Shown: piece by piece, positions 4,885-49,000 of the stretch
How the letters are laid out: each line of letters opens with the position of its first letter
Numbering within the stretch: position 1 is the stretch's first letter
DNA from: Ridgeia piscesae
Lineage: Eukaryota; Annelida; Polychaeta; Sabellida; Siboglinidae
Assembly (NCBI GenBank): GCA_025642075.2
Contig: JAODUO010001224.1
Location: forward strand, 60,001 to 124,000
DNA length: 64,000 nucleotides
Reading direction: 5' to 3'
Made by a program: the position numbers and the translations under genes
The notes under the pieces: generated by a model
The model's input: the letters and a program-made list of their open reading frames with translations, nothing else
Database searches by the model: none
What the model was told of the DNA's origin: nothing

Positions 4885-7800
4885 TTATAAATATTCTGCA
4901 ATACTATCAACACCAATTGTCAAGAAAAACTTGGCTTCTAGAAGAAGAGCTTTCGTGTATATTCTGAGGATGTAGTATAGGTTAACAAAATCGAGTGTAC
5001 TGAAGAACGTGTCTGCTAAGGCAAAGCCTAGAGTAGACGGAATGAAGCCACGCCCGTATTCGACCATCCAAGTTCCTGCCTTGAAGTTTACCGATGTTGC
5101 CTCACCCCATGCGTGGAACACAGTGTCACCTACAACAGTGGAACACAATGTCACATACATCAGTGGAACACAGTGTCACCTACAACAGTGGAATACAGTG
5201 TCACCTAAATCAGTGGAACACAGTGTCACCTACAACAGTGGAACACAGTGTCACCTACAACAGTGGAACACAGTGTCACCTACAACAGTGGAACACAGTG
5301 TCACCTACAACAGTGGAACACAGTGTCACCTACAGCAGTGGAACACAGTGTCACCTACATCAGTGCAACACAGTGTCACCTACAGCAGTGGAACACAGTG
5401 TCACATACAACTGTGGAACACCGTGTCACAACAACATAACAATGTAATTTATGACAACATAACAGTATCACCTATAACAGCACAGTGTCATCTACACATA
5501 CACAATTCAGTGTAAGCAGATGATATTTCTAGGGACCTTGTACAGCCTAATCTGCTCAAAATCATATCCAATTTATTACCAAAATAATACTTTCTAAAAC
5601 TAGGGTATTTGAAAAATGAGTTCATCTGCAACCATTCTCAGACAATATATTTAACTTAGTCTGCTTTAGTTTCTGTATGAATCGACACTTCCACGGAAGT
5701 TGGCGTGGAGAGTTCGCACACGTAAATCAGTGTAAATTTAATACTTTGAATGCAGTTAAAGGGAAAATTGTGAGACAAATTGAGCAAGAGCAGCCTCTGG
5801 GACAGACCCAAATGGGATACAAAGAAGATAGAGGATGTGGGAAGAAAATAAGATGGACTGGCGATGGAGTTAGAAAACATCCTTCCTACATTGTCATCAC
5901 ACCGCTTGCATCACAGAGGAAAGCCTCCGGGACATGGCAGTTGATACAGTTATGACATTTAGTAAAACGCAATATTAGACTTGAACCGTCTGACTATTGT
6001 CACGTACACGTCCGTCTCGGTGACACATACCCGCGTGAAAAGAGTTCATTTTCAGTTCTCCTTCTTTCCACTGATTGAATTCTCCGGTGAGCAGAGTATC
6101 AGATATGTTTGCCCAGTAGCGACCTGAAATGACAGAGGAAGCATTAGCCCAAAGCGAGACAATTAACACCATGTTTCTTCCCCAGTGAGTGAAATCCAGA
6201 TACGATTTGGTGTTGATATCTGACCCTGTGGCTACTGAGCTATTTCTGAGACACACTGTTCAGGCCTTTCTGTGGGATAACAATAAATTGCCAGTCCAAA
6301 ATTTGGTGGTACCTGTAGTCGTATACATGTTAACTGACATAGAGACAAGTCAGATGACATGTGTATTGTTAAGTTTTGAAATAAACAATAAACACACGTG
6401 TGACACCCATTTTCAAAGCATTCTTGACAATTTATATATTTTTTTCAGACCATTTTCGTTCCTTATTGTTTTACTCATCCAACACCTGTCCAATGATATT
6501 TCTATCCATCCAAAATGGGTTTTAGCCCATCCAAGTGACGGTTGGACGGGTCTCTAATCTCTCTACATAAACGTATACATTTACCAGATTGTGTTTCTCA
6601 ATTGGCAGTTTTCTACCAGTATCCCAACATACTTACACTGTGACTTGTAATCACATTTCATACAAGATAACAATAGTATATTATTCCAAACATATTTCAT
6701 AATTACACAACTAGCAATGTTCTAATTACTTCTATGTTTCGACCACCATTGAAGGCCTTCTTCAGGAACTGAATGGTCAGTGGTCACTGCTCGCTACATG
6801 GCGTGGCGAGCAGACTGTCCCACACGTGACTTAGTCTGTAGCCCCCCTCGTCTCTGTTCATAGTTGGTTCCGTCTTCCTAATCCAGGTGGCTTCTTTTAT
6901 CCAACGCACACACCTGTTTGTCTCTTTATCCATCACTTTCGCCCCCTCCCAGTCTATCACACAGTTGTGTCTGTCCATATGATCTGCCGATGGTGGTCGA
7001 AACATAGAAGTAAGTAGAACATTGCTAGTTGTGTAATTATGAAATTTTTTGGGAATAATACCCTGCCAACTTGATGAACATTTCCACGGTGATAGTATAT
7101 TAATAATACAAGTACCTTATGCAGTATAAAATACCCAGTAGTTTTGATCTAAACAGTTCTGTTGTTTTGATATAGTAAATGTTAAAACCAGCATGCACAC
7201 ACTCAGGGATTATTTAAAATATATAAGCAAAGTACTCAAAATGTTTAGCAACAGTCCTCATTTATTAAACTGCAATAACTTCTTCTGGTCTTGTATTCCT
7301 TTTAGTGATATGGTCACAGTCAGCATTCCCTTGAAATTTCACTTCCAAATCTCCCAACGACCTCACACAACTGACACAAGTCATGCCTGAGGTGCCAGGG
7401 ATGTTCGCTGGGCATAGGCCGCCTATGTGACACGGGGGTATTGTGTGTTTTTACAAAGTGTGGTAAAATCTTGATCAACAGATATTTTCATGTAAAAATT
7501 GAAACCTATGGATTGGCAATATTTTTTCTAAAGTTATCACTGTGTCAACCCTGTTTTACACACATTGTACACAATGCCCATCATCTGAACGACAATGTAA
7601 CTGCCCTTACAGGGATAAATACAGTTTTATTGTATTGTATTGTATTGTATTGTATTGTATTGTATTGTATTGTATTGTATTGTATTGTATTGTATTGTAT
7701 TGTATTGTATTGTATTGTATTGTATTGTATTGTATTGTACCAGCTTTGTAGGCATAACTGCTTAGAGTAACCTGGTATGATATTGCAATTTTAACCCGAT

Positions 7801-46006: not shown

Positions 46007-49000
46007 TCATGATTCCCACTTGAAGCCAAAGAAGACAAGACATAGAAGTAAGTTCACCACGATACTTATTCCAAGCAGACTCGTGGTGAAGGAACTTTGT
46101 TGTTTCGGAGGAACTGCAATCAAGAAAACAACACTGTCCATGAGAAATTGTTCCAAGCGCTCACACTGACATACAAACAAGAAATCAATCACCTGCAAAT
46201 TCCCTCACAAAAAAACGCTATCTTGGCAGCTGAAAGTGACACTAATGAATTGAAACAAACATGCTGTGCATTTATAGAAGCAGCATTTCTTAATCACACA
46301 GGTTTGATATATGTTTTATTTGTGTTTCAGAAGAAATAATATTTAAAAAATATTATTAGCAAAGGTTTAGTCATTGAATATGTGAGTAAAACTGTTTGAA
46401 ACTATATTTTGAGTAAAAGCTAAGAAATGACTAGATATAAAAAAAATCTTTTTTATAATGTTTATCTCTGTTTCAGTGTGACATTGAATGTGGCTTTTAC
46501 CTTTGCATGTTTATACACATATTAATAAGTTTTCTTTGTCTTAATATTTGGCCCTTAAGATGTGCCGAATTCTAGAGACCAGTATTAATATATTTCCAAC
46601 AGTCTTGCTGATTGGAAACTGACATGACCACATACAGGAAGATGTACCTCGTGCAGCGACAGGGGCGCAATCTGTTGTGGTATCCACCTCACACCTGGAC
46701 GACACGGATGACCGCTCACTACCGTTGCTGACAGGGTCATCGGCAAGCCGCACATCACTAAACACAGAGCTGATGTCACTGGCAGCGTAGCCTGAGATGG
46801 TGCTGGGCGAGTAGAAGGAGTTGGAGGCGAGGAGGGAGGCAGGAGTGGGAGACGTGAATGACAAGACACTTGAAGGACGTTGAAGAGACGCGCCTGACGA
46901 TGAGCCACCGAAGAGATGAGCTGCACGGTGGACAGAACCTATGACAGACAGAGTTGACACTATGAAGGTGACAGACTGTGTCAATCACAAAGAAGACCTC
47001 ATATCCGTGATGTTGTCTATCATCTAATATCTTGTCTTAGCCATCTAGACATGGCCTTACTTTACCCATAGGTGTTTTCGTAGAAGCGACTGTACATGTT
47101 TCACAATCTTTTCCTAAGGTAAAGTGTAAATAAAACTAATATATATATATATATATATATATATATATATATATATATATATATATATATATATATCTAT
47201 ATATGTTACAATTTACTGTTTGACATTTTTAATGTTCTGAAATTTGTTTACCATAATTATGCATATTTTATGGGCACAAACATCATTCAACCTCTGTTAA
47301 CATGCTTTGGGGTTACTAAAACAAACCGGATGTTTCAACATAATATTAAAATATAATGTTAAAAATTGAGAAATCACACTCCCTTCCCTAAACACACACC
47401 ATGCCCTAGGTTCTGTGTGGGCACCACCCCCTCCCTGCTGATTGGAGGTGCTTTGAAGCGGGCCGGACTGATGAGGGGGCGATTACGACGATGTCTCATT
47501 GACTCGGTCGGAGAACTCGGAGGACTCATGTTCACGTGCTTCGGGACGGAGCGAGGAACAGCAAACACACCTGGAACAACATCAACACACCTGGAACAAC
47601 ATTAACACACCTTTGGAATGCACATTAACATGCCTTAATGAGATTCACATCAACAATATGACAACAACATTTATTGAGAGTTCAATTTACAGTTTAAAAT
47701 ACAATTGTATATATGGCATGACATGTTTGTAAGTAATATTGTCAAGTATCTACACTGTAATATAGTTTATGTACTACAAAAACTTCCATTTTCTTAACTG
47801 GAATGAATTACTCTACACACAGTTTCAAAATGTTCATCACATTAAAATTAGCACATACCTGTCAAACAAAATGTACAACTTTGTAGATGTTTCTACATTG
47901 GAATGTACATAATGTAATTACAAATAAAGATGACAAAATATGTGACTGAAACATTCAATGGATATATGTGTAAAGTGTATAATATACACTACTAAACAGT
48001 TTGTATATTATATATATATATAATTATATATATTATATATATATATATATATAATATATATATATATATATTTACCTAAGTAAGATGGAATCAAATAATT
48101 TGAAAGTTCCTCTAATCTGACAACTGACTGACAACTCACCCATCTGCCTGTTCTCTGTGTGGTCACCACGGAGGCTGACAGATTCAAAATCACCCATGCC
48201 TGTCACCGACGAGGAGCTGTCGCAAGTCTCGGTTATAGAAACATTTCCATCCACTTGTCTCCGCCTCCTACAAACATCCCAACGTCTCCATATGCTCTGT
48301 CACAATACTTAATCGTCAACACTCCTAGTGATGAATAGGTAACATAAAAGATGGAAGTGTCATATTGAATTGATAAAGAAGGAGATCCCAGATACATAAA
48401 TGATGGATTAAAGAGTTTACAAAGTTATCATGACAACTGTAGACAACAGAAAACCAACATAAATGTATTTTTAACACACTTGTGTTCCCAGGGTAGGTGT
48501 GGCTGATTACGTTTGTGTCAGCCTTCATTATGCCTGGCACGTGTTTTTGAAAAACTCCTCTTAATATTAAGCAAAATAAATCGCACATGAGGGTGTGATT
48601 GGCCTGTGGTCATGGGATATAATTTTGGGTGATTTCAATAACACACAGCTTGTATTACATGCAACGTTTAGGGAACTGAATTCCCACCAGTCATGTATCT
48701 GGGTATTTTAATGCTAATGGCGGAGTCAATTTTTAACAGTTTGCGGAGATGATCAGCCAGGGGTACTGTAGCACAGTGCAGTGATCCGTGGCTTGCGAGA
48801 ATGCTGTTTAATGAAGTGTCCAAATACACAGATTCCTTAATGAAATTAATTAGCTAATGTTATGAATTATGTTGTGTGGCGGGACAAAACTCACGTGTGT
48901 TTGCGCAGAGTGATGCGTCTGACTCGCTTCTGTCTCACAAATACCATGCTGCAGGCGACAAGAAGCACGTTGACTGTGGCCACGGTACACTGCAGTAGGA

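Follow-up and report, generated by a model that had tools for sequence, protein, structure and literature searches.

Minisatellite-like tandem duplications of exon-intron boundaries, termed "mirages," have been described in amphioxus in the genes for Adh3, troponin C, and globin Gb6/Gb9 and in PGBD5 (PMC3087553; PMC3902484). For Adh3 and globin, reverse transcription-PCR suggests that splicing is undisturbed, and the number of copies varies between haplotypes (PMC3087553). Internal tandem repeats also lie on exon-intron boundaries in human genes within segmental duplications (PMC2812944), and the model of Rogers derives new introns from AGGT proto-splice sites that have been duplicated in tandem (PMC3087553; PMC2891723). 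Among annelids, a paper on earthworm metallothionein describes intronic minisatellites and exon duplications that are missing from the transcript (PMC12783039). Here, we describe arrays that cross splice junctions in a 64,000-nucleotide stretch of the siboglinid annelid Ridgeia piscesae (assembly GCA_025642075.2, contig JAODUO010001224.1, positions 60,001 to 124,000 of the forward strand; "the window" below, with positions counted from its first base). Comparison with junctions sampled from the rest of the genome suggests that such arrays are ordinary tandem duplications tolerated at exon edges.

Repeats were called with Tandem Repeats Finder (TRF), which returned 56 rows in the window, including all nine arrays named in the first-pass annotation. 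Gene models combined homology with ab initio prediction, for which exons from the same genome served as the training set; when checked on the genome sample described below, the gene finder recovered 102 to 104 of 118 junctions. We listed 69 junctions from five window genes and counted one as crossed when at least 3 bp of array lay on each side. Three of the 69 boundaries lacked the expected GT/GC or AG and were left out of the tests that use 66 junctions; none of the three was crossed by an array. Eight of the 69 junctions were crossed, six of them acceptors and two donors. The first-pass annotation had placed nine arrays on junctions, acceptors and donors alike. Both boundary types are indeed affected and eight arrays do cross, but the repeat before the exon at 35272 ends ahead of the AG. 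The features are as follows.

5113..5436, reverse strand: SIGMAR1 exon 4 acceptor array, 25 bp x 13; exon start 5129, with 17 exonic bases in the unit.
19637..19861, reverse strand: VEZT-like gene acceptor duplication, 111 bp x 2; exon start 19664, with 28 exonic bases duplicated.
29506..30564, forward strand: ARM-gene acceptor array, 26 bp x 41; reaches the exon at 30563.
31660..31737, forward strand: ARM-gene donor duplication, 34 bp x 2.3; exon 31587-31686 (...PAIQ, then GTAAGG).
34470..34566, forward strand: ARM-gene acceptor array, 19 bp x 5; ends 3 bases into the exon starting at 34564.
34666..34730, forward strand: ARM-gene donor array, CAG followed by GTGAGCTTTGAGT, 16 bp x 4; donor 34668, 3 exonic bases.
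41010..41141, reverse strand: ICMT acceptor array, 36 bp x 3.7; exon start 41035, with 26 exonic bases in the unit.
47555..47612, reverse strand: TMEM201-like gene acceptor array, 20 bp x 2.5-3; acceptor 47570, 7 to 16 exonic bases.
35249..35270, forward strand: pyrimidine-tract repeat before the ARM-gene exon at 35272, 10 bp x 2.2; junction not crossed.
4885..5129, reverse strand: SIGMAR1 last exon to the open-frame stop, identified by a Pfam PF04622 match, open frame, and homologs.

Seven of the eight junction arrays are short (58 to 324 bp). How far they reach into coding sequence varies. At least 14 of 16 exon-edge bases are copied in four of the eight, and copies of the exon end match at 15/16 in the VEZT-like gene, 16/16 at ARM 31686, 14/16 in ICMT, and 12/16 in the TMEM201-like gene. 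The ARM 31686 duplication holds 27 exonic bases by TRF, of which 18 are copied perfectly. The ARM 34564 and 34668 units hold only three exonic bases each. At ARM 30563 the exonic part is 2 to 14 bases depending on the TRF record, the larger value coming from a weaker record (30525-30576) that enters the exon by 14 bases; here the exon is mismatched at three bases in 39 of 39 recognized intronic copies and at a fourth in 37. The SIGMAR1 unit carries the codons for GDTVFH, and the motif G[DE]T[VI]xH occurs in 103 of the 120 homologs listed (of 399); the ICMT unit carries those for VMLCNPVC, and xxCNP occurs in 113 of the 120 homologs listed (of 700). Since these units hold residues conserved across phyla, the exon edge seeded the SIGMAR1 and ICMT arrays, and the exon is the older part. 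The first-pass claim of exon-seeded arrays containing conserved coding sequence is borne out by these two genes.

For a reference set, we sampled splice junctions elsewhere in the assembly (628 Mb, 4,875 contigs) from three families chosen without regard to repeats: the Pfam myosin head (75 matches), DHC_N2 (85), and TCP-1/CCT (50). The sequence examined covered 113 of the 160 matches to myosin and dynein, together with 13 of the 50 to CCT. In the first two families, 61 neighboring exon pairs were continuous in hidden Markov model (HMM) position and agreed in phase; 59 of them yielded confident introns (118 junctions), and two were left out for low score. Single exon edges gave 60 more called junctions (3 of them ambiguous), and 31 edges were without a splice call. 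Two CCT stretches contributed 17 junctions, bringing the total from 178 to 195; there, 2 of 11 neighboring exon pairs were without a call, and 3 that did not line up in the model yielded 5 single junctions. Exon edges at protein-domain ends, contig C3590, and C272:279540 were also left out. Arrays beside the 31 uncalled edges were inspected by eye and kept out of the counts. The called donors and acceptors match the usual splice consensus. C3590 and C272 were dropped as an assembly duplicate; C3590 contains inverted near-identical copies of part of C272 (C272:278040-281210), and this inverted duplication is likely an assembly error.

By eye, seven of the 195 sampled junctions carry clear arrays (four donors, three acceptors).

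C497:177055, donor: 24 bp, ~91 TRF copies; carries the dynein codons LYFPR.
C619:713519, C619:715712 (decayed), and C153:374220: the other clear donors.
C153:381181, C707:127364 (two copies 98 bp apart), and C288:166087: the clear acceptors.

At two further acceptors, on C1094 and C235, arrays run up to the acceptor and were left out of the count. A donor on C17 scored 13/16 in the automatic test described below but failed confirmation by eye.

Repeats were no commoner at sampled junctions than inside introns. At the TRF level (score 50, 3-bp margin), 3 of 178 junctions were crossed against 2.97 expected, the expectation being drawn from the 24 arrays that lie wholly within 47,025 bp of sampled introns; under other settings, the three observed compare with 1.88 to 3.46. 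Taking the arrays rather than the junctions as the unit of counting, 2 of the 26 arrays in sampled introns extend to a junction, where random placement predicts 2.84, and 6 come within 20 bp of one against 4.67. A finer test scored a junction when a copy of the exon-end 16-mer occurred in the adjoining 250 bp but not on the opposite side, with the same rule applied to 42,427 intronic positions in both orientations as a control (rate, 2.84%). At 13/16 matching bases, 5 of 195 junctions scored against 5.53 expected; at 12/16, 10 against 10.06; and at 14/16, 3 against 4.50. With 13/16 as the minimum match, simple controls on the initial 178 junctions gave 4 for the exon end in the adjacent intron, 0 for the exon interior, 0 for the opposite strand, and 2 of 169 for the intron 300 to 550 bp away.

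Exon interiors were very different. Local copies at 13/16 were found for 127 of 16,745 exon-interior 16-mers versus 10,039 of the 42,427 intronic ones, a 31-fold depletion; the counts were 681 versus 12,901 at 12/16 (7-fold) and 12 versus 8,757 at 14/16 (~290-fold). A coverage test, in which 2 of 118 junctions compared with 23 to 25% of intronic positions, was not relied on, since coverage within introns is inflated by long arrays; about one-quarter of the sampled intron sequence is covered by arrays. Together, the one-sided, founder, array-centered, and interior tests and the simple controls show that exon edges behave like introns and that exon interiors differ, on a sample (n = 195) that is too small to exclude a junction excess of up to about two-fold.

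The first-pass annotation had read its cluster as looking like a genome-wide tendency for minisatellites to be born at AG-GT junctions. In the sample, the ratio of observed to expected was about 1, and the tendency was not supported. Nor was there a bias toward the AG-GT motif: the exon starts with GT at 3 of 9 array acceptors versus 24 of 119 others (P = 0.40). Unit length was divisible by three in 4 of 11 TRF units.

Because repeats are no commoner at sampled junctions than inside introns, we favor the reading that junction arrays are random tandem duplications, of which this repeat-rich genome has many, and that exon edges would tolerate them about as well as introns do; to this reading we assign a probability of roughly 0.7. 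Replication slippage or unequal exchange would first duplicate a stretch straddling the junction and then multiply its copies. Duplications wholly inside coding sequence would be purged by selection. A straddling duplication, by contrast, would leave a single exon edge and its splice signal intact, the surplus copies landing in the intron. If splicing uses the copy beside the full exon (the last acceptor or the first donor), the mRNA is predicted to be unchanged, and straddling duplications would likely persist as if they were intronic.

Several observations weigh against this reading. At the TRF level, the window is richer than the sample (8/69 versus 3/178; Fisher P = 0.002), and in the one-sided test it shows 4 of 66 junctions against 1.26 expected (P = 0.04), or 6 against 2.61 at 12/16. 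The count by eye in the sample exceeds the TRF count, and the clear cases are unevenly spread among families, with six in dyneins, one in CCT, and none in myosins. A regional or gene-specific excess is possible. In a rival reading, AG-GT motifs, transcription, or splicing would start minisatellites more often at exon edges, making junctions hot spots. The window speaks for it: its other arrays predict only 0.36 to 0.70 crossed junctions (1- and 3-bp margins) where eight are observed, and 8 of 13 arrays in its annotated introns (score of at least 50) reach a junction versus 1.43 by random placement, or 8 of 25 versus 2.55 at a looser score of 30. Two dynein paralogs with different arrays at the same ancestral donor point the same way. 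But the window was picked for its cluster, and for that reason we do not take its excess as hot-spot evidence. The difference between window and sample shrinks to P = 0.24 in the one-sided test, the sample ratios are close to 1 in three tests, and an AG-GT bias is absent. We consider junction hot spots unlikely.

SIGMAR1 is backed by Pfam PF04622 and by homologs, the best match among those listed being a Lamellibrachia satsuma protein (86% identity over 88% of the query). ICMT is likewise backed by Pfam and homologs (best listed match, L. satsuma, 84%). These matches fit a host that is probably a vestimentiferan tubeworm. Amphioxus was rejected as the host: a search for the GFP family, which is expanded in amphioxus, turned up no candidate, although such a negative does not establish absence, and SIGMAR1 pointed to Lamellibrachia. 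The ARM gene encodes a ubiquitin-like/armadillo protein without a given name, with 89 matches. These include P0122, a protein of L. satsuma, and the 655-residue P0121, whose 2,520-base contig probably represents a relative's transcript. VEZT and TMEM201 are putative names from the earlier reading, and the exons of both genes were predicted ab initio. In Lamellibrachia, a contig of 419,790 bases is given for each of the three proteins (SIGMAR1, ARM gene, and ICMT), which suggests that their genes probably lie near one another in that worm as well.

That AGGT tandem duplication makes introns, the arrays being introns in the course of birth or movement, is a model published for other organisms (PMC2891723; PMC3087553), and it gains some appeal here from units that hold a donor or acceptor signal, which in several arrays matches the true site in strength. 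The first-pass annotation had suggested such a link to intron gain or loss. Yet the junctions that carry arrays belong to introns that already exist. P0121 and P0122 run uninterrupted across the four array-bearing ARM-gene junctions, and a relative's proteins for SIGMAR1, the ARM gene, and ICMT have no residues inserted or lost at the array junctions. The one intron examined for age, a dynein intron at HMM position 313.67 that bears arrays, is common to three paralogs (on C497, C619, and C1235) and hence is not new; two of the three carry different donor arrays, one of them the ~91-copy array, so these arrays grew on an old intron. We therefore regard intron birth as very improbable at these sites, and the suggested link found no support in the intron examined. 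The two dynein arrays (C619:715690-715870 and C497:177030-179215) are different tandem arrays from one ancestral donor, TTCCCCAG followed by GT. The 24-bp array on C497 (177040-179205) can also be described as a higher-order repeat of 71 bp, made up of donor-like copies in alternation with others that have lost the GT.

The arrays might instead be kept for a function, with repeated splice sites slowing, buffering, or re-splicing the transcript; an AG-GT unit can serve in both roles, as acceptor and as donor, which would allow a wrongly chosen site to be re-spliced. Consistent with this, the array exons of SIGMAR1, ICMT, and the TMEM201-like gene start with GTG, and decoy copies score equal to the true site in several arrays. 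The exons behind the other six array acceptors, however, do not start with GT, and the sampled arrays are not above expectation. The splice AG or GT is kept in 121 of 140 recognized intronic copies, among which we saw no sign that decoys are either purged or protected. Splice dinucleotides mutate like their neighbors (mismatches at 21/280 versus 61/970 at other intronic unit bases), a comparison that is itself weak, and a further point against our preferred reading, in that array copies are non-independent and were recognized by unit similarity. Mismatches in the exonic part (265/2,182) come mostly from the ARM 30563 array. A maintained function thus seems to us a slim prospect. Finally, collapse or expansion of reads during assembly, for which the inverted contig C3590 offers a precedent, is extremely improbable as the source of the repeats, given that seven of the eight window arrays are short, that copies diverge within the longer arrays, and that 15 junctions in different genes show this structure.

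If a rate of ~3% applied genome-wide, thousands of introns would contain from several to dozens of equally strong sites from which the exon-proximal copy is always picked, an extrapolation that we hold to be rather doubtful. Were it true, site choice would be set by position beside the full exon and not by strength, and repeat turnover would allow exon edges to drift freely.

Some further observations concern the same genes and families. Within an intron of the VEZT-like gene, a 22 bp x 99 array (16205-18460) has an acceptor-like CAG in its consensus unit, and the predicted exon that follows is ~155 bp away. In the ARM gene, the intron after ...ICAQ has a GC donor (GCAAGT) at 34069-34070, if the relatives' protein junction ICAQ-EELL holds. 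An open frame with a reverse transcriptase domain at 60537-61076 (RVT_1, 40.9 bits) is probably a retroelement fragment. A search of the assembly with the ICMT DNA returned one copy only and thus no second, allelic copy of that region. In the sample, the open frames around several of the matched myosin exons span 685 to 1946 codons; we suspect these to be stop-free minisatellite arrays joined in frame to exons. Contig C411 holds three myosin genes with one exon 95 to 97% identical, and most of their flanks are without a match of at least 90%; these paralogs offer an opportunity for dating arrays.

How do these arrays compare with the systems already described? They resemble intron gain by the Rogers model in that a tandem duplication takes in splice signals, but differ in that existing junctions are copied into an existing intron, without a new intron shown; the shared dynein intron and the ordinary frequency of GT exon starts accord with this difference. 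With the human paralogs they share minisatellite units of ~30 bp on exon-intron boundaries; there, variation yields novel introns and alternative splicing in paralogs of recent origin (PMC2812944), whereas the annelid arrays lengthen existing introns. The closest likeness is to the amphioxus mirages: repeats span the boundary (8 of 69 window junctions and 3 of 178 sampled ones), acceptors and donors are both affected, units measure 10 to 160 bp, and copies carry the splice signals (121 of 140). The amphioxus papers also report normal mRNA and haplotype length variation. A term search of the Ridgeia genome paper (PMC9921365) returned no mention of minisatellites, and the listed results of the literature searches included no annelid report of such arrays, a weak sign of novelty. 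What the present work adds to the amphioxus description is an annelid host and a rate (~3% of the junctions sampled) set against intronic positions as a control. In the sample, the edge duplication rate is about that of introns, such that a junction-specific birth mechanism is unneeded, and the arrays provide many natural experiments on spliceosomal choice between neighboring identical sites. Exon-edge minisatellites, known mainly from amphioxus, are thereby extended to an annelid.

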